Shown one piece after another: positions 2,697 through 31,648 of a stretch of 53,879 bases of DNA. The position numbers were made by a program, and so were the translations under genes. The first letter of the stretch is position 1. The number at the start of each line of letters is the position of its first letter. Origin of the DNA: an uncultured Clostridia bacterium (GTDB taxonomy: Bacteria > Bacillota > Clostridia > Oscillospirales > Ruminococcaceae); contig CALXBD010000040.1 of NCBI GenBank assembly GCA_944386445.1, positions 1 to 53,879 of the forward strand, in the 5' to 3' direction. The notes under the pieces are model-generated. The model saw only the letters and a list, made by a program, of their open reading frames with translations. It was not told the DNA's origin and did not search any database.

Positions 2697-4856
2697 ATGA
2701 AACGCGAAGAAGCCCTTCAATTGCTGCGAGAGGAACCTGTTTTTTGGTCACGCTTAGGCTTTTGCTATGATCCGCCACGTGCAGGAAAGGATGGGAAACA
2801 GATCATCTTTTCTCGAAACTTTTCCCGCTACCAGAAAACTCACGATGCATTTTCCGCTATCGGAGTCAACCTACATTCTGGAATCATTCACAGCGGATGG
2901 ATAGGGGATAATCAGTATGATTATGAAGCGGCAGATACAACTATCCAAGCTGTGCTGGAAGGCCATCCCGAGCGTTGGTATATTCCCAGAGTGAAATTAA
3001 ACGTACCGGTAGATTGGTGCCGTAACCATCCGGAGGAGGTTTTTGTCTATTATGGCGGTCCGGAAACTCCGGAAGAGATTGCCGCAATGGTGGGAACCCC
3101 GCTTCATGACTGGTTTGGCGGTGACACAGGAAATGGCTATCCGGTCAACGGTGGGTACTATCAGGACGATCGTCCCAACGTCGGGGGCATGATCGGTCTG
3201 CAAAGCTTTTCCTCCCAAAAATGGCTGGAGGATGCGGGAGAAGCCTTGCGCCGCTTTTTGGAGCATATGGAAAAAGGCCCTTATGGAAAGCAAATTCTTG
3301 CCTATCATATTGCTTTTGGCTGTTGTGGAGAGACGACTCTTTGGGAAGCTTGGCGCAAAGGTGGAGAAAACCGCCGTGGGGATTATGGTATCGGGCATCG
3401 TCACCGCTTCTACCGTTGGGCGGTTGCACATTATGGCTCCGAGGCAGCCCTCCGTGCCGCATGGGGGATCCCAGATCTAACGGAGGAAAACTTCCGCCTG
3501 CCGCCGCCCAATGAACGGGAAAGCCAGGGACAGTCCCTAGAGCAAATGTTTCAAGATCAACTTCTGCCAGACTATTACGATTTCCTGTCAGAATGTTCCG
3601 CATCGGCCGTTGAATATTTTGGGCGTATTGTTCATGAGAGTTGCGATAAACCTGCCGGCGCCTTTTACGGATATCTAGTAGTTCCTCAAGCTCCGTATGC
3701 AGGTCATCTTCATTTACAGCAGATTTTGAACTCTCCCCATGTGGATTTTCTTGCCTCTCCTCGTTCCTATAAATATTGTGTTGCCGGCGAGCCCGGTGGA
3801 GAACAGGTCCCATCACAGACTTTCAACCGCAAAAAAATTTGGATGGATGAATTAGATAATTGGACCCATCTAGATATTTTAAAACGGGCGGATGCAGCAA
3901 AAAACATGGCGGAAACTCGGACGGTTCTTTGGCGTGAAGTTGCGAAAAACCTCTCATATGGCCAAAATTTCTGGTGGATGGATCTAGGTGAGGGCTGGTT
4001 TGATGACAGTGCCATTATGAAAGAATTGTCTGATCTTTATCAGTTGACAGCACGGCTTCGGAAAAGGCCACGTAAAAGTACGGCCCAAGTACTGGCGGTT
4101 GTCGATGAAGAGGGAATCCAATACAGTAAAATCAGCTATGGATTGGCTCAAGGCCTTCGGGAACGATTGCTGCGGGAACTGCGCCTTTGCGGTACAATGG
4201 TGGATCAGTACTGCCAGAAAGATCTTCTGGAGATGGACCTTTCTCAATACCGCTTTGTAGTATTTCTGACCCCCTTTGCCCAAACCTATGAGCAATGGCA
4301 GAAAATCCAGGATAAGCTTGCCGCAGGTACAACCGTTTTATGGAACTATGCAGCAGGAATCCGGGGTGGTACGTTTGATGTGGATCGTGTACGGCGGCTT
4401 ACCGGCTTTTCGGTAAAATCCCGAGATGGGGATCCCTGTTCAAAATGTTATAGTGATATTCCCTTGGACTTCCCTGCACTGTCCATTTCCCCTCAGGAAG
4501 GTGCGGAAATCCTGATGCGCGCAGAGTCTGGCGATGCTGTGTTGGCCAGAAGCCAGGACGGAAAACGATATCTTGCTTCAGAACCTGTTCTTCGGGTCCC
4601 AGAATTGCGGGAGATGATGCGACAGGCAGGAGTTCGTATGACCGCTCCCGAATACTGCACGGTTTATGAAGACAGCAGATTTACCGCTGTGTTTTCCAAG
4701 AAGGATATAGATGGAAAAATTACATTCCCCTCAGCCGGAGATTTTCGCGAATTAAGCACAGGACAAAAGATCTTAGGGGCAGAACGGACAAGTTTATCGC
4801 TTGCAGCTAAGGATTTTGTTTTTTTCGAACAGCTAACTGATACAGAAAGACTATAA
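2697..4856 (+). CDS. Glycoside hydrolase, clan GH-A, beta-galactosidase (GH42)-like
   Basis: A 719-residue protein without signal peptide, preceded by AGGAGG. It resembles the uncharacterised 'beta-galactosidase' proteins with a GH42-like TIM barrel followed by a Rossmann-like trimerisation-type domain (about residues 465-650). Candidate catalytic glutamates are Glu212 in the AFGCCGETTLWEAW stretch (acid/base strand) and Glu385 in IWMDELDNW (nucleophile strand). These assignments are by position in the barrel, not proven. It lies 80 bases after the truncated permease and was probably co-transcribed to hydrolyse the imported oligosaccharide in the cytoplasm. The exact CAZy family and substrate cannot be fixed from the sequence alone. 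Confidence 0.7.
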   Translation: MKREEALQLLREEPVFWSRLGFCYDPPRAGKDGKQIIFSRNFSRYQKTHDAFSAIGVNLHSGIIHSGWIGDNQYDYEAADTTIQAVLEGHPERWYIPRVKLNVPVDWCRNHPEEVFVYYGGPETPEEIAAMVGTPLHDWFGGDTGNGYPVNGGYYQDDRPNVGGMIGLQSFSSQKWLEDAGEALRRFLEHMEKGPYGKQILAYHIAFGCCGETTLWEAWRKGGENRRGDYGIGHRHRFYRWAVAHYGSEAALRAAWGIPDLTEENFRLPPPNERESQGQSLEQMFQDQLLPDYYDFLSECSASAVEYFGRIVHESCDKPAGAFYGYLVVPQAPYAGHLHLQQILNSPHVDFLASPRSYKYCVAGEPGGEQVPSQTFNRKKIWMDELDNWTHLDILKRADAAKNMAETRTVLWREVAKNLSYGQNFWWMDLGEGWFDDSAIMKELSDLYQLTARLRKRPRKSTAQVLAVVDEEGIQYSKISYGLAQGLRERLLRELRLCGTMVDQYCQKDLLEMDLSQYRFVVFLTPFAQTYEQWQKIQDKLAAGTTVLWNYAAGIRGGTFDVDRVRRLTGFSVKSRDGDPCSKCYSDIPLDFPALSISPQEGAEILMRAESGDAVLARSQDGKRYLASEPVLRVPELREMMRQAGVRMTAPEYCTVYEDSRFTAVFSKKDIDGKITFPSAGDFRELSTGQKILGAERTSLSLAAKDFVFFEQLTDTERL

Positions 4857-4992
4857 ATTTCTCATAAGGAACCTGACAATTCATATTACCATTTCTTTGA
4901 TCTTATACTGAATGTTTCCCTATCCAGGAAATGTGACCGTGTAGTGTGCTGAGGAACCATCGAATATTCTAAGTGAAAGGAAGAAAATAAGG

Positions 4993-5124
4993 ATGAAATA
5001 TCGAGAACTGGAATCTGAAAGGCTAATATTCAGGAAATTCAGACAGGAGGATTTTCCGATTGTATATGATTGGTTTAGCAACATTGAAAATATGAAATAT
5101 AGATCTAGTGAACCGATTAGTTGA
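4993..5124 (+). pseudogene. GNAT N-acetyltransferase, 5' fragment only
   Basis: A reading frame of 43 codons starts with ATG at 4993 behind a GAAAGGAAG ribosome site and reads MKYRELESERLIFRKF followed by RQEDFPIVYDWFSN. This is the typical N-terminus of RimJ/RimL-like GNAT acetyltransferases. It stops after about a quarter of the normal length, and no downstream GNAT motif follows before the terminator hairpin at 5139. It is a decayed gene, and the start signals are still intact. Confidence 0.7.
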
Positions 5125-5138
5125 AATGTTGTAACTAA

Positions 5139-5190
5139 AGAAAAGCGAGGAAGTTAATCAAAACTTCTCCGCTTTTCTAGTGCTTTTTTG
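5139..5190 (+). terminator. Hairpin terminator between GNAT stub and sigG
   Basis: Arms 5139-5147 (AGAAAAGCG) and 5170-5178 pair perfectly, and pairing continues through 5149-5155 with 5162-5168 around a six-base loop. A run of six T at 5185-5190 follows on the plus strand. It sits between convergent genes, so it may also end sigG transcription, although the T-run on that side is poor. Confidence 0.65.
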
Positions 5191-5208
5191 AAAGAGAAAC
5201 GGAAAATG

Positions 5209-5976
5209 TTAAATCTCCCCTTTAACCTTAGCAAGTGCTCCTTTTTCGAGTCGGGAAACCTGTGCCTGGGAGATGCCGATCTCTTTGGAAACTTCGACTT
5301 GGGTCTTGCCCTTGAAAAAACGGAGAGCAATAATCTTTTTCTCCCGATCGTTGAGCTTGGAGAGCGCTTCCCGCAGGGAGATCTCATCCACCCAGTTTCC
5401 ATCATCGGAGTGGTCAGAAACCTGATCCATGACGTAAATAGTATCTCCGCCGTCGGAGAAAACCGGCTCGTAGAGGGATACCGGATCGACGATGGCTTCC
5501 AACGCCAGCACAATACTTTCCCTGGGAAGCCCGATTTCTTTAGCAATTTCCACGACCGTTGGCTCTTGGCCTAGGGAGGTAGTGAGCCGTTCTCTGGCCT
5601 GCATGGCTCGGTAAGCAATGTCTTTAAGGGAGCGGCTCACTCGGACAGGGGAGAAGTCCCTTAAGTGCCTGCGAATCTCGCCGATCACCATGGGCACCGC
5701 ATAGGTGGAAAATTTTACCCCCTGATCGACATCAAAGTGATCGATAGCCTTCATTAGGCCGATGCACCCCACCTGAAACAGGTCGTCCAGATTCTCTCCC
5801 CGGTTGGTAAATCGCTGAACCACGCTAAGAACCAATCTTAAGTTGCCTTTTATTAACGCCTCACGAGCATTTGAATCCCCTGCGTGCATTTTTCGTAACA
5901 ATTCCATTTTTTCTTTTTCTTTCAGGACCGGCAGTTTGGCAGTATCAATTCCACAAATTTCAACTTTATTCAGCAT
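5209..5976 (-). CDS. sigG: RNA polymerase sporulation sigma factor SigG
   Basis: The late forespore-specific sigma-70-family factor that directs transcription after engulfment. The 255-residue protein opens with the SigG signature KVEICGIDTAKLPVL. It has region 2 (NLRLVLSVVQRF, DDLFQVGCIGLMKAIDHFD, KFSTYAVPMVIGEIRR) and region 3. The region 4 helix-turn-helix is GKTQVEVSKEIGISQAQVSR near the C-terminus. The ATG at 5976 is chosen because it follows a G-rich ribosome site (GGGGGG) and matches the usual SigG start; an in-frame ATG eight codons upstream is less likely. In many relatives sigG sits beside spoIIGA-sigE; here it stands alone, with a GNAT stub after it and a divergent UroD-like gene before it. 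No convincing SigF/SigG promoter was identified by eye in the 280-base upstream gap. Confidence 0.97.
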   Translation of the reverse strand: MLNKVEICGIDTAKLPVLKEKEKMELLRKMHAGDSNAREALIKGNLRLVLSVVQRFTNRGENLDDLFQVGCIGLMKAIDHFDVDQGVKFSTYAVPMVIGEIRRHLRDFSPVRVSRSLKDIAYRAMQARERLTTSLGQEPTVVEIAKEIGLPRESIVLALEAIVDPVSLYEPVFSDGGDTIYVMDQVSDHSDDGNWVDEISLREALSKLNDREKKIIALRFFKGKTQVEVSKEIGISQAQVSRLEKGALAKVKGEI

Positions 5977-22690: not shown

Positions 22691-23146
22691 ATGAAAGCAC
22701 TGCGCCTTGCCAAAATCGTAGAACTGGTAGAAAAAAATGAGGTTTATACGCAAGAGGATTTGTTGCAATTACTGGCTCGGGAGGGCATTGCAACAACTCA
22801 GGCAACGATTTCACGGGATATTAAGGAACTGAATCTTGTAAAAAGCGTTACCGAGGATGGGAAGTATAAGTATACTACTAGCAGAAAAAAGCAGACGGAT
22901 ACCATGGAAAAGAAGTTTCGGTCGGTATTTATTGAGTCAGTAGTTTTGGTGGATTATGCACAGAATATTGTAGTTGTAAAATGCCATACGGGTATGGCCA
23001 ATGCCGCCTGCGCCGCGCTGGATACCATGGGGCTGGAAGGAATCGTAGGTACTTTGGCTGGCGATGATACAATTTTTATTTTGATGCGTACAGAGGAGTT
23101 AGCCCGCAATATCAGTGATGAAATCCGGGCCATGCTGGTTTCGTAA
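22691..23146 (+). CDS. argR: Arginine repressor ArgR
   Basis: A 151-residue arginine-responsive DNA-binding regulator. The N-terminal winged helix (IVELVEKNEVYTQEDLLQLL, then TQATISRDIKELNLVK) and the C-terminal hexamerisation/arginine-binding domain (GTLAGDDTIFILMRT) are both complete. GGAGGG precedes ATG 22691. The order tlyA-argR-recN is conserved in many Firmicutes. No arginine biosynthesis gene is in the window. Confidence 0.96.
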   Translation: MKALRLAKIVELVEKNEVYTQEDLLQLLAREGIATTQATISRDIKELNLVKSVTEDGKYKYTTSRKKQTDTMEKKFRSVFIESVVLVDYAQNIVVVKCHTGMANAACAALDTMGLEGIVGTLAGDDTIFILMRTEELARNISDEIRAMLVS

Positions 23147-23165
23147 GTGTGCAAAGGAGCAGATT

Positions 23166-24836
23166 ATGCTTGCAGCGCTATATATTGAAAATCTGGCTGT
23201 TATTGAAAAAGCGTATGTGGATTTGCCGGTTGGATTTACTGTTTTTACTGGAGAGACTGGCGCAGGAAAATCTATCCTGATCGATGCTATAAACGCCTGT
23301 CTGGGGCAGAGAACTTCTAGGGAAATTGTCCGTACAGGTGCGGAAAAAGCCAGTATTTCGGCAGTTTTTCGGGAGATTCCCGCTGATGTGATTCAGCTTT
23401 TAGAAAAGAATGGGTATTTTGCAGAAAATGGCGAACTGATGGTATCCCGTGACATCCATGCCGACGGCCGCAGCGCAGCCAGAATCGGTTCCCGTCCGGC
23501 GACTGTCGGGTTCCTGCGGGAAATGGGAACGCGTTTGATAAATATTCATGGTCAACATGATAACCAGATCCTTCTTTCGCCGGAACAGCACGTGGTTATT
23601 TTGGACAATTTCGGGAACCTGGTGGAGGAACGTGAACGATATCAGGAAAAATTTAAGGAATTGTCCGCGGCTATTCGAAAACTGCGTGCTGTTTCTAAAG
23701 ATGAAGCCGCTCGAAACCGCCGGGAAGAACTGTTGAAATATCAAATAGAGGAAATTACGGCTGCCAGGCTGACACCAGGTATGGAAGAGCAACTGCAGCT
23801 TAAATCACAGCGTTTTCAGAGTGTAGAGCGACTAGCACGAGCATTGAGTGCGGCATGTGATGCTTTGCAGGGTGCGGGTGAGGAAACTCCGGGTGCAGTG
23901 GACTTGTTGGCTTCGGCCCGGGACGAAATTCAGAGCCTTTCGGAGTTCCCTGAATTTTCCCAGGCGGCGGAGGGCCTGGAAGGCTTATCAATAGAAGCGG
24001 CTGATTGGGCAACTGCCCTTCACGGGCAGTTAGAGAGCTTGGAATACGATCAACAGGAAGCCGACCGGGTGGAAGCACGTCTCAGTGAAATCCACACGCT
24101 GAAACTGAAGTATGGGAATACGGTTTCTGATATTTTGGACTATCTGGAGGATGCCAAAAAAGAGCTTTCAGGGCTTCAGTCTTCCGAGGAAGAGCTGCGA
24201 AAACTCAATAGCCGCGCCCATGCGCTGAAAAAGGAAGCCGCTTCAATGGCAGCAGCTTTAACGCAACATCGCCGGGAAGCAGCGGAACGTTTTACTGCTA
24301 AAGTGGCAGAAGAAGCACGCTTTTTGGAAATGCCTAATCTCCGGTTGGAAGCCAGATTTGCTCCGGGGAAACTTAGTATCGGCGGCGATGCGTCAGTTGA
24401 ATTGCTGATTTCCGCAAATCTCGGGGAACCGCCAAAACCAATTGCAAAAATAGCGTCTGGTGGTGAACTTTCCAGAATCATGCTGGCCATAAAAAGCGCG
24501 TTGGCCGATAAGGACGATATCGGAACATTGATTTTCGATGAAATTGATACCGGAGTAAGCGGGAAGGCCGCACAAAAGATAGGCCGCAAGCTTCGGGAAG
24601 TGGCTGCGTCTCGGCAAGTACTTTGCGTGACCCATTCGGCACAGAGCGCCGCTCTGTGACAGGCTCATTGCCTGATCCGGAAGGAGACTGCCGAAGGTCG
24701 TACCCGTACCCGGGTTTTGCCGCTGGATTTGGAAGGCAGGGTGGAAGAGATCGCCCGTATCATGTCGACTGATAATGTTAGTGAATTAATGAGACAGACT
24801 GCTCGCAGTATGCTTTGCGAAGGCGGCGCCTGTTAG
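23166..24836 (+). pseudogene. recN: DNA repair protein RecN, interrupted by an in-frame TGA
   Basis: RecN is an SMC-like ATPase that acts early in double-strand break repair. ATG 23166 (AAAGGAG upstream) starts the usual MLAALYIENLAVIEK. Walker A GETGAGKS is at 29-36. Coiled-coil arms follow at about 150-350. Signature IASGGELSRIMLAIKSAL, Walker B LIFDEIDTGVSG and the H-loop CVTHSAQ are present. A TGA at 24657-24659 ends the protein at 497 residues. The same frame then continues for 58 more codons (QAHCLIRKETAEGRTRTRVL and onward) to a TAG at 24834, giving the normal family length of about 556. Other genes here use TGA as an ordinary stop, so this is not a general recoding. The truncated product keeps every ATPase motif but lacks the last strand and helices. 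It may be a nonsense mutation, a sequencing error or read-through. Confidence 0.9.
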
Positions 24837-29041: not shown

Positions 29042-29506
29042 GTGAAAAAATTGTTAAATCGATGGAGCGGTTGGCTTGGAATTTTGGCAGCACTTCTCTG
29101 CTGTTTTCTCCTTGTAGGCGCCGGAATCGACGGACAGCTATCTTCAGATTTTTCTTTGGAATCTTCCCAATCCGAGTCAGAAAATCCTTTCGAGGGCGCA
29201 GCCGACATGCGTGTTTATCGGGAAGCCTTGGAAATCATTGGATCCACTTCCTTGGATGACTTGTCTGATGCACAAAAAGTCCAATTGGCGGCATTGGGAA
29301 TTCCAGAAGAGCAGCTGCCGGAATTTTTGAGCAATCTGGAAACCTATCTTTCTCAGAGCAATGAAAGCACAGAAGGGTACGAGCCTGTCAATTCCTGGTG
29401 GGACACAGGTTGGATCGGATTTGTCATAATGGTTCCTGTACTCTTAGCAGTAGTAATCTTTTTGCTGATTTGGTTTGGAAAGAGAAATCATCCGCGAGGC
29501 AGCTGA
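29042..29506 (+). CDS. Small membrane protein of unknown function
   Basis: A 154-residue protein not recognised as any family. It has an N-terminal membrane or signal segment (about 10-28), a Ser/Glu-rich linker, and a helical acidic middle part (about 55-110, with STSLDDLSDAQKVQLAALGI). A C-terminal membrane helix (about 122-143) is followed by a basic tail. GTG 29042 is chosen because AAAGGAGG lies nine bases upstream; GTG 29036 is too close to it. A TATAAT lies at 29009-29014. The last 63 bases overlap the end of the convergent TIGR03915-like gene. Confidence 0.65.
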   Translation: MKKLLNRWSGWLGILAALLCCFLLVGAGIDGQLSSDFSLESSQSESENPFEGAADMRVYREALEIIGSTSLDDLSDAQKVQLAALGIPEEQLPEFLSNLETYLSQSNESTEGYEPVNSWWDTGWIGFVIMVPVLLAVVIFLLIWFGKRNHPRGS

Positions 29507-30298
29507 GTTGCTCTTCGGGAGCAAAAGCGATTGTGAACTGTGTGACAGATCGCAAAATTCTGTCATGTTGTGCCAATATCGTTTGGGGCAGTGCGTCATA
29601 CGACATCGCGGATTATAACGCCCTTCAATTGCAATAGTATCGTAAAAACGTTTCCACAAGGCTTCATACTGTGCTTCTTGTTCGTCAAGAGCCGGCATAT
29701 CAATGGAATCAGCGGGAAGAATCATGCATTTGTGATTCCAATAGGTCAAAACCATGCCATGGGTGTCGTCATAGATGAGAAAGGTTTCCTCCGGGTAGCG
29801 CTGCACGAAATGCGGAGCCAATCGGGGGAGAACTTGATTTTTGGGAGAAATAATAGCTGTCAACGCACCGTTTCGCTGGGCGAATCGGATAAAACCCTTG
29901 AGCAGATGGGTTTCATTGTCCACAAATTGTACTGCTTTATGAAGGCAGAATACCGTTTCGTCTTGAAGCATCCGGGTAATCGAAGGGCCTTTTTTGTATC
30001 CCTTTCGTAGAAAATCTAAAATGACCCGTTCTTTGTTTTCCAGGCAGGAGAGAAAACCGTTTTCTACCCAGTAGAGTGCTTCTGATGAAATCTTTTTTGG
30101 AATCGAATTCCGGACTCTGGAAGCGTGGACAGAGTCCGTCGGGATATATCTTGGCGGGCAAAGGGAGGGCTGTGCAGCATTTTCAGGCAAGATATCGGCA
30201 GGGGATTCCTTTTCTGCGATGGCAGTAAAAATACAGCATAGCAAACCATCAAAGCTGCCATCATAAAGATATGCAGTTATAGTTGGCCGGTCAGACAT
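29444..30298 (-). CDS. TIGR03915-like putative DNA repair/metabolism protein (DUF4130)
   Basis: A 284-residue soluble protein that recalls the TIGR03915 family (opening YLYDGSFDGLLCCIFTA, basic FLRKGYKKGP, and the ending GRYNPRCRMTHCPKRYWHNMTEF). In many bacteria it is encoded next to a radical SAM protein (TIGR03916), as here. The family is considered part of an uncharacterised DNA repair or modification process, and in some phyla it is fused to a uracil-DNA-glycosylase domain; no such domain is present here. Its start overlaps the radical SAM gene end by 22 bases. Through the operon promoter it would be under LexA control. Confidence 0.88.
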   Translation of the reverse strand: MSDRPTITAYLYDGSFDGLLCCIFTAIAEKESPADILPENAAQPSLCPPRYIPTDSVHASRVRNSIPKKISSEALYWVENGFLSCLENKERVILDFLRKGYKKGPSITRMLQDETVFCLHKAVQFVDNETHLLKGFIRFAQRNGALTAIISPKNQVLPRLAPHFVQRYPEETFLIYDDTHGMVLTYWNHKCMILPADSIDMPALDEQEAQYEALWKRFYDTIAIEGRYNPRCRMTHCPKRYWHNMTEFCDLSHSSQSLLLPKSNSAASRMISLSKPNQQKDYYC

Positions 30299-31587
30299 TT
30301 GGCCACCTCCTCCCGCGTCAGCAGCCGGGGATCAGAGAATAAAGACAGCTGTTCACCGCGGGCTGAAGCCAGCAGGTGAGCTGCCTTATCTGACAACACC
30401 GCTTGGATCATATTGTCAGATCGAAGACGGGCACCATCAGGTTGTTTTCCATTGCATAAAATAAAATATTGGGCACGCTTTAATACAACACCGATCTTTT
30501 TCAAAGCAGCTTCGTTCAAAGAGCCCAGCCGCCGGGCAGCAATAATCCGTTTGGCTGAGCGAACACCAATACCGGGGACACGCAGCAGGGTTTCATAGGA
30601 TGCGCGGTTTACTTCTACAGGGAACTGCTCCAGATGATTGACAGCCCAGTTACATTTGGGGTCGAGAAACGGATTGAAGTTGGGATGGGCGTCATCTAAA
30701 AGTTCCCGGGCTTCGAAGCCATAGAATCGCAGCAGCCAATCTGCCTGATAAAGCCGGTGTTCCCGGAGCAGCGGCGGCTTGGTTTCCCGAGAGGGGAGAA
30801 GGGAGCTTTCCACTACTGGCATATACGCAGAAAAAAAGACTCTTTTCAAAGAATATTTACGGTACAGCGCCTCTGTAAGGTTCAGAATTTGGAGATCGCT
30901 TTCCGGCGTAGCGCCGATGATCATCTGTGTACTTTGGCCTGCCGGTGCAAAGCGGGGAGCATGACGGTATTTTATCAGGTCTGTGCAATTTTCCTCGATC
31001 CCATTTCGGATAAGGCCCATAGGCGCCAGGATTGCTGCTTTGGACTTATTGGGAGCCAAAGTGTTCAAACTTCTTTCACTGGGCAGCTCAATATTAACGC
31101 TCATTCGGTCAGCCAACAGCCCCATTTTTTGAATCAAAATCGGATCAGCGCCTGGAATCGCTTTTACATGAATATATCCATAGAACCGGTATTCATTTCG
31201 GAGAATCCTTAAAACCTCCAGCATTCTTTCGCAAGTGTAGTCAGGATTTTTAAGGATACCAGAACTTAAAAACAGCCCTTCGATATAATTTCTTCTGTAA
31301 AATTGAATGGTCAGGTCTGCCAGTTCCCGGGAGGTAAAGGTCGCTCTGGGGGTATCGTTGGTCGCACGATTGACACAGTACTGACAGTTATAGGCACAGG
31401 CGTTGGAAAGCAGCACCTTAAGAAGGGAAATACATCGTCCGTCCGCTGCAAAGCTATGGCAGATCCCGCACGCTGATGCGCTTCCAATTCCACCTGCTGC
31501 GGGAGCTTTATCCACTCCGCTAGAGGTACAGGCTGCATCATACTTTGCTGCGTCACTTAGGATCGTAAGCTTTTCCATTAAATCCAT
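30277..31587 (-). CDS. Putative DNA modification/repair radical SAM protein (TIGR03916-like)
   Basis: A 436-residue radical SAM enzyme. The [4Fe-4S]/SAM motif is CAYNCQYC (Cys64, Cys68, Cys71). A further cysteine group lies before it (CGICHSFAADGRC, residues 40-52). The C-terminal part has a helix-hairpin-helix DNA-binding motif (LLRVPGIGVRSAKRIIAARR). The combination of radical SAM with HhH is typical of TIGR03916, whose substrate is unknown. ATG 31587 is chosen for the GGAGG site in its leader. It is first in a two-gene operon with the TIGR03915-like gene and is preceded by a promoter containing a LexA box. Confidence 0.92.
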   Translation of the reverse strand: MDLMEKLTILSDAAKYDAACTSSGVDKAPAAGGIGSASACGICHSFAADGRCISLLKVLLSNACAYNCQYCVNRATNDTPRATFTSRELADLTIQFYRRNYIEGLFLSSGILKNPDYTCERMLEVLRILRNEYRFYGYIHVKAIPGADPILIQKMGLLADRMSVNIELPSERSLNTLAPNKSKAAILAPMGLIRNGIEENCTDLIKYRHAPRFAPAGQSTQMIIGATPESDLQILNLTEALYRKYSLKRVFFSAYMPVVESSLLPSRETKPPLLREHRLYQADWLLRFYGFEARELLDDAHPNFNPFLDPKCNWAVNHLEQFPVEVNRASYETLLRVPGIGVRSAKRIIAARRLGSLNEAALKKIGVVLKRAQYFILCNGKQPDGARLRSDNMIQAVLSDKAAHLLASARGEQLSLFSDPRLLTREEVAKCLTGQL

Positions 31588-31618
31588 TTTATCGTCCCTC
31601 CACAGAACATCTATTCTT

Positions 31619-31648
31619 ATTATAACATCGAACATGTGTTTTTGTAAA
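31619..31648 (-). promoter_or_regulatory. Promoter of the radical SAM repair operon with LexA (SOS) box
   Basis: On the minus strand: -35 TTTACA (31643-31648), an 18-base spacer and a perfect -10 TATAAT (31619-31624). The spacer holds AAAACACATGTTCG (31629-31642), which matches the Firmicute LexA operator CGAAC-N4-GTTCG in one half-site exactly and in the other with a two-base deviation. A bound LexA dimer would block polymerase directly. The start codon is 32 bases downstream. Confidence 0.8.

Follow-up and report, generated by a model that had tools for sequence, protein, structure and literature searches.

A predicted LexA-controlled radical SAM enzyme with a candidate sliding-clamp motif and a DUF4130 partner in an uncultured Clostridia bacterium

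The contig CALXBD010000040.1 of an uncultured Clostridia bacterium (assembly GCA_944386445.1) was analysed over its whole length of 53,879 nucleotides, here called the window. On its minus strand, running from 31648 to 29444, a promoter is followed by two overlapping genes, which encode a radical SAM (S-adenosylmethionine) enzyme of the family TIGR03916 (rSAM_link_UDG) and a partner protein of the family TIGR03915, the DUF4130 domain. Judged from sequence, the best reading of this unit is that it probably provides a LexA-repressed radical SAM enzyme, tethered to the sliding clamp, which acts on damaged DNA together with its DUF4130 partner. The protein families, the promoter, the conserved operators, a conserved clamp-type motif and the arrangement as a two-gene unit support it.

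The promoter is formed by a -35 element TTTACA (31643..31648, minus strand) and a -10 element TATAAT (31619..31624, minus strand) with a spacer of 18 bases between them. A LexA-type operator, AAAACACATGTTCG, is found within this spacer (operator 1; 31629..31642, minus strand), and both its coordinates and its strand agree with the initial annotation of this DNA, which had described such a promoter. A second LexA-type operator, AGAATAGATGTTCT, was overlooked there; it lies between the -10 element and the start codon (operator 2; 31604..31617, minus strand) and contains the 12-base core GAATAGATGTTC at 31616-31605. Six genomes of the same genus carry the gene, and comparison with them shows that all six have a site in the spacer and a second box directly after the -10 element. 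In three of them (L107, L109 and L111) operator 1 has two mismatches; these copies were missed by our script and were read by eye in the alignment. The seven promoters of the genus, the window included, can be aligned from the -35 element through operator 2 into the gene, while the sequence further upstream is not alignable. Within this block CTTTACA is identical in all seven members, and the aligned -10 element is TATAAT or TATACT in all seven. Operator 1 outscores all 1442 background windows when the matrix is derived solely from the congeners.

The same motif is observed well beyond the genus. Our relatives are the best 80 of at least 592 confirmed stretches and give, together with the window, 81 upstream regions of 150 bases each. 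All exact dyads of 4-base half-sites with gaps of 0-12 were searched in these regions, and 100 dinucleotide shuffles served as the control. The commonest dyads are AACA-N2-TGTT (31/81) and GAAC-N4-GTTC (28/81), which are two readings of one motif, GAACA-N2-TGTTC; in the shuffles GAAC-N4-GTTC is found in a mean of 0.17 and a maximum of 2 regions. When up to one mismatch is allowed, the motif is present in 53 of the 81 upstream regions, whereas the shuffles average 3.6 and never exceed 12; inside the gene it is found in 14 of 80 cases. Two or more separate sites are present in 25 of the 81 regions. The operator thus overlaps the promoter and is kept in relatives, as is expected of a member of the LexA regulon. 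Whole genomes supplied a second set of 30 places, some of them from the same species, of which 16 have a site by the patterns used. The form GAACN4GTTC is given as the Bacillus subtilis operator in passages of PMC4234289.

Plasmid copies of the gene were also compared. Thirteen were picked among 40 listed of 158 records, eight from alphaproteobacteria, one from a betaproteobacterium and one each from Bacteroides, Lachnospira, Gemmatirosa and Subdoligranulum. All eight alphaproteobacterial copies have an exact GAAC-N7-GAAC at most 50 bases from the start, and the single betaproteobacterial copy has an exact CTGT-N8-ACAG, so that all nine proteobacterial copies carry LexA-type operators which differ from the clostridial form. 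We take the forms found in the clostridial, alpha- and betaproteobacterial copies to be the LexA types of those three groups. The Lachnospira copy carries GAACAAATGTTT. The scan upstream of TIGR03916 genes which the initial annotation had put forward as a check therefore speaks for its proposal among the mostly clostridial relatives, with other operator forms in Proteobacteria.

The genome of the window (2.77 Mb in 154 contigs, 86% complete) contains lexA and recA, and the lexA-less genome that the initial annotation had named as fatal to its proposal is not the case. The twelve congener sites, with the own genome excluded, were used to build a matrix, and the 150 bases ahead of each of five SOS genes in this genome were scored with it. 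Compared with the 1442 overlapping background windows, p values of 0.0007 for uvrB, 0.0042 for dinB2, 0.0055 for dinB1 and 0.024 for recA are obtained; four of the five genes are thus below 0.05 (uncorrected). An AT-rich background of 383 windows gives 0.0026 for uvrB, 0.010 for dinB2, 0.016 for dinB1, 0.050 for recA and 0.19 for lexA. The combined p for all five genes is 8e-7, or 3e-5 with the AT-rich background. The two Y-family polymerase (IMS) genes of this genome (L104 and L105, on contigs C29 and C7) both have TAAATATTTGTTC just past the -10 element, and both are likely SOS genes of this genome. The lexA gene (L002, contig C76) is preceded by two genes that look TrkA-like by eye. It appears from its sequence not to be self-repressed through the operator motif, because the matrix scores no site there.

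Several results weigh against LexA control and have to be considered together. Matches to CGAACN4GTTCG with at most two mismatches number 11 within the window against 19.5 expected. In the 2.77-Mb genome GAACANNTGTTY occurs in five copies including the one at this promoter, and the backward pattern in eight, which is no enrichment; three of the other four copies lie inside open reading frames and one is upstream of a frame that was judged by eye to be glycoside-hydrolase-like. As neither count is above chance, we dropped both as support, and the single operator site taken by itself could be an accident. No box is found within 150 bases in 28 of the 81 upstream regions, and in the second set the patterns used pick up no site at 14 of the 30 places; two of the 14 are partial matches that lack a true start. 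Neither the Bacteroides nor the Subdoligranulum plasmid copy shows any of the tested patterns, among which the Bacteroidetes operator types were not included. The 150 bases upstream of the own lexA have a matrix p of 0.14 and no good box, and the matrix site of dinB2 is in a shifted register relative to the one seen by eye. The words 'radical', 'helix-hairpin' and 'glycosylase' are absent from the main text of a study on the LexA of Clostridioides difficile (PMC4234289).

The chance-level window count, the missing genome enrichment and the own lexA without a site would suit a different repressor with a similar dyad, which would place the pair outside the SOS regulon. We consider this highly improbable. 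The same gene carries three kinds of operator, presumably the LexA types of three bacterial groups, and the congener-trained motif scores at uvrB, dinB and recA. Furthermore, the pair CAC3343-CAC3344 of Clostridium acetobutylicum was placed in the LexA regulon in 2013 from a computational footprint analysis combined with expression data, according to passages of PMC3828012. The operator site goes beyond chance because of this comparative evidence, from the relatives, the congeners, the proteobacterial copies and the SOS genes of the own genome. LexA regulation of the pair is thus predicted with near certainty.

The presence of lexA and that of the operator box were also compared across 80 genomes. 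Both are present in 47, lexA only in 9, the box only in 5 and neither in 19 (Fisher p 1e-7, or 6e-8 without the four doubtful rows L033, L048, L066 and L069); the box is missing in 19 of 24 genomes without full lexA and in 9 of 56 with it. A genome was assigned by hand to the lexA-less class when no above-cut-off TIGR00498 match spanned the N-terminal DNA-binding part; several of this class are incomplete metagenome-assembled genomes, and four (L058, L073, L074 and L077) show zero TIGR00498 match. A single group, formed around Faecalibacterium, Gemmiger and Ruthenibacterium, accounts for 14 of the 24 lexA-less rows. A tree of 80 proteins (the window and 79 relatives, with the truncated L040 excluded, and L048, L066 and L069 excluded from the traits) offers only five supported independent pairs, and on average the box follows lexA in 1.2 of them and opposes it in 1.0; this is not significant and is a further point against our reading. 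We therefore rejected the association as evidence, since it fails the correction for ancestry and comes mostly from one clade. To be noted, twelve Faecalibacterium-, Gemmiger- or Ruthenibacterium-like genomes (L026, L027, L029, L041, L042, L056, L059, L062, L063, L072, L078 and L080) keep the gene pair. No full-length LexA is seen in these genomes, and the 150 bases upstream of the pair hold no operator.

The second important feature is found in the C-terminal tail of the enzyme. Residues 413-417 read QLSLF (30337..30351, minus strand), a predicted sliding-clamp binding motif which is absent from the initial annotation. The tail around residues 410-416 has a pLDDT (predicted local distance difference test) near or below 50 and is poorly conserved apart from QLSLF. 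In an alignment of 62 rows (61 of the 80 relatives and the window) the commonest letters at these five residues reach 100, 81, 87, 73 and 95%, while the other positions of 398-436 reach 10-58%. Among the 79 tails counted (the short L040 was omitted), 71 contain the relaxed form Q[LIMF]x[LMFI]F and 48 the strict form QL[SD]LF. As controls, positions 1-380 of these enzymes (30,342 residues) and 63 partner proteins (16,914 residues) each contain one relaxed and no strict match. In a further set of 32 places, which includes the window and several species shared with the 80 relatives, a slightly wider form is found in 28, and the four exceptions are the truncated L128 and three variants. The proteobacterial tails are shorter and otherwise dissimilar, but all nine end in the five residues QLxL[FIL], three of them strictly in QLSLF. 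QL(S/D)LF is given in passages of PMC4045847 as the consensus by which bacterial proteins bind to the sliding clamp. A conserved motif of this type in a flexible region is what the sequence of a clamp partner would show, and the QLSLF tail likely serves to attach the enzyme to DnaN, the sliding clamp.

Two points count against this docking. The evidence for it is a five-residue sequence match from which binding is predicted, and some tails deviate, namely QPSLF (L132), QLSIT (L134), QLSLW (L141) and the QLLLDF of Bacteroides (L139), whose C-terminus reads QLLLDFGE. It is also conceivable that the pair is SOS-controlled while QLSLF binds the DUF4130 partner or some other protein instead of the clamp, as the motif is encoded just ahead of the partner gene start and both genes mostly travel together. 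We regard this as unlikely, although it deserves to be kept in mind: QLSLF fits the clamp consensus (PMC4045847, as far as its passages go), its position drifts while its letters are kept, and in Proteobacteria it stands at the extreme C-terminus, where the similarity of the partner is low (15-20% identity in the four aligned). Two relatives, L040 (gene at 4001-5287) and L128, which are probably one species, have a TAG inside the TIGR03916 gene, and the rest including QLSLF is open behind it. The gene may be a pseudogene there, or the TAG may reflect a sequencing error or an unusual code.

The enzyme itself comprises 436 residues (30277..31587, minus strand) and matches the TIGR03916 profile over all of its positions (1-415 of 415) with an E value of 1.9e-199 and 663 bits, where the curated cut-off is 343.5; it is the single match in the whole genome. 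The radical SAM cluster motif CAYNCQYC (31375..31398, minus strand) supplies C64, C68 and C71 in a CX3CX2C spacing, and these cysteines are invariant in all 62 rows and also in a 10-row cross-phylum alignment. In addition, C20, C43 and C52, together with H44 (31432..31530, minus strand), are invariant in the same two alignments, from Clostridia to Proteobacteria; as judged from conservation, the three cysteines may form a second iron site. A helix-hairpin-helix (HHH_3) is found by Pfam at residues 323-353 (30529..30621, minus strand), barely above the cut-off (27.8 bits vs 27). The general Radical_SAM model of Pfam stays under its cut-off, with 24.6 vs 29.5. Among the best 50 of 1283 matches in a fold search, only the general radical SAM barrel is seen (with HydE, ThiH, lipoyl and biotin synthase, pyruvate formate-lyase activase and viperin). 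From its family, TIGR03916 is predicted to be an iron-sulphur radical SAM enzyme which cleaves SAM.

The partner gene (29444..30298, minus strand) encodes 284 residues that match TIGR03915 with an E value of 2.2e-70 and 237.1 bits (curated cut-off 112.25) and the Pfam model DUF4130 with 1.9e-46, and it adjoins TIGR03916. The two genes overlap by 22 bases (30277..30298, minus strand). The initial annotation had described a two-gene unit in which a helix-hairpin-helix radical SAM enzyme is paired with a TIGR03915-like protein, and this is borne out, with family profiles above cut-off. A TIGR03915 partner is located downstream of TIGR03916 in 78 of 80 loci, and in 67 of the 74 loci with a placed partner start it overlaps the enzyme gene or begins at most 35 bases after it. 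The overlap is exactly 22 bases in 33 of these 74, a number biased upwards by picking the partner starts through alignment to the protein of the window. In two of the 80 relatives (L036 and L038) TIGR03916 stands without TIGR03915 in the DNA examined around the gene. The overlap had been taken as the sign of a coupled complex; it fits translational coupling, but an overlap alone does not show a complex. The enzyme and DUF4130 may nevertheless form one.

In 63 of 63 partners, mostly from Bacillota, Pfam lists DUF4130 and no family of uracil-DNA glycosylase (UDG). The partner alignment covers 62 of the 78 partners of the relatives and that of the window. The Bacteroides partner is also DUF4130-sized. 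In Proteobacteria the partner is annotated as UdgX family (uracil-DNA binding protein) in eight of nine copies, the ninth record being unannotated, and the four that were aligned show a DUF4130 part followed by a further domain. A search of the 86%-complete genome with the UDG model TIGR03914 gave zero matches, and the partner protein here is DUF4130 only. UdgX is missing here, and uracil repair can therefore not be a general role.

The structure model of the partner has a pLDDT of 86.9. In a Foldseek search its best four matches have template-modelling (TM) scores of 0.30-0.40 at about 10% identity, the scores are lower below these, and only one match has an E value under 0.001. The leading matches are, as we presume, DHH-family phosphoesterases: PAP phosphatase, PggH, NrnA, RecJ and Cdc45. 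Cdc45 is a degenerate relative of RecJ. A comparison of hidden Markov models with NrnA-like proteins gave a probability of 0.2%, using the 8 of 13 sequences that hold the letters DHH. By this weak structural resemblance DUF4130 may be a degenerate relative of the DHH phosphoesterases.

The following course can be proposed from these features. LexA bound at both operators, in the spacer and immediately beyond the -10 element, would shut the promoter. Upon DNA damage LexA would be cleaved and the promoter would open, and the unit would make the radical SAM enzyme and then DUF4130 by coupled translation. The QLSLF tail would dock the enzyme to DnaN, and the helix-hairpin-helix would also bring it to DNA. 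In this way SAM-derived radical chemistry could reach DNA that is damaged or post-replicative, at the forks or behind them. The enzyme would then repair or convert a base lesion, which DUF4130 (in Proteobacteria a fusion with UdgX) would help to recognise or pass on. That the enzyme acts on DNA is very likely; given such action, repair rather than modification is strongly favoured.

A DNA-modifying enzyme would write a base change that is read by DUF4130 or UdgX, for example in order to mark new DNA after damage. The NCBI family name leaves modification open and UdgX is annotated as uracil-DNA binding, yet SOS control and a genome with no UDG of the TIGR03914 type suit the handling of damage better, and we think this role rather improbable. 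An even smaller chance is given to a relative of the spore photoproduct lyase SplB that reverses ultraviolet-induced thymine dimers. DUF4130 has been described as associated with SplB-like radical SAM photolyases (passages of PMC3765255), but no SplB model is among the NCBIfam and Pfam matches at E values up to 0.001, no photoproduct lyase is among the best 50 of the 1283 fold matches, and SplB (COG1533) and COG4277 are listed as separate SOS genes in passages of PMC8565304. For the LexA-controlled, clamp-tethered repair enzyme, a wider proposal can be made, to which we give an even chance: TIGR03916 would be replisome-coupled and SOS-controlled, and with DUF4130, possibly a degenerate relative of DHH nucleases, it would form a lesion pathway of its own without uracil-DNA glycosylase.

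TIGR03916/TIGR03915 is a widespread pair, and its predicted SOS control is described here at base resolution in one clostridial genus. Three operator types in three groups on one gene suggest a functional link rather than lineage noise. If QLSLF binds DnaN, the motif would reveal the cellular site of action of the enzyme, and a simple mutation could serve as the test. If it is true, a radical SAM enzyme joins the clients of the clamp, and radical chemistry would reach the forks as the translesion polymerases do.

The surroundings of the pair are less constant. With the longest frames taken as genes, no recurring family that could be a third gene of the unit is found downstream (the largest cluster has 3 of 45), and upstream there is one cluster, 9 of 48, in the lexA-less clade, which is perhaps a spurious frame. 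Elsewhere in the window, at 23115-24659 on the plus strand, an open reading frame of 514 residues is RecN-like by eye. It stops just past a CVTHSAQ stretch and is possibly cut short.

LexA control of the pair is not new. It was already predicted in C. acetobutylicum (PMC3828012) and, for the version with UDG, in Bacteroidetes (PMC8565304), as passages of both show. The placement under LexA had been presented as a direct functional clue; the control is supported by our comparison, but it had been published as a prediction before and so brings no new clue. In the literature passages searched, no reaction is assigned to TIGR03916 or TIGR03915 and a clamp motif in the TIGR03916 enzyme is not mentioned; the motif in the tail is the part which we did not meet there. 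In the open-access literature searched for both terms, no radical SAM enzyme with a clamp-binding motif was found. Related observations are that a protein with the TIGR03916 product name increases upon desiccation in Acinetobacter Tol 5 (PMC13130816), that LexA binds a radical SAM gene in Streptomyces venezuelae (PMC9380542) and that the core Gram-positive SOS set includes a radical SAM gene (PMC7739468); in the passages of the latter two the family is not told.

Among the known systems, CAC3343-CAC3344 is close to the pair described here. It bears the product name of TIGR03916, and the family identity rests on this name; the dual operator and the clamp motif are unmentioned in the passages of PMC3828012. 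We presume COG4277 to be the same family as TIGR03916. The COG1573-COG4277 (UDG/COG4277) operon of Bacteroidetes is likewise a two-gene SOS operon and lies within a predicted SOS network, and passages of PMC8565304 cite earlier SOS reports of this operon in Verrucomicrobia and Alphaproteobacteria; it differs by including a uracil-DNA glycosylase protein and other operators, whereas here DUF4130 is found without UDG. The proteobacterial operons of radical SAM enzyme and UdgX (L135-L138 and L186-L189) share the radical SAM family, the adjacent partner, the LexA-type operator and the C-terminal clamp-type motif, as well as the DUF4130 part in the four aligned, while their partner is annotated as UdgX and their operator types differ. 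Finally, the SOS polymerases and ImuB are SOS-induced and tethered to the clamp by a QLxLF-type motif, as is predicted for the enzyme here, but according to passages of PMC4045847 and PMC3901139 they are polymerases or polymerase partners and not radical SAM enzymes.

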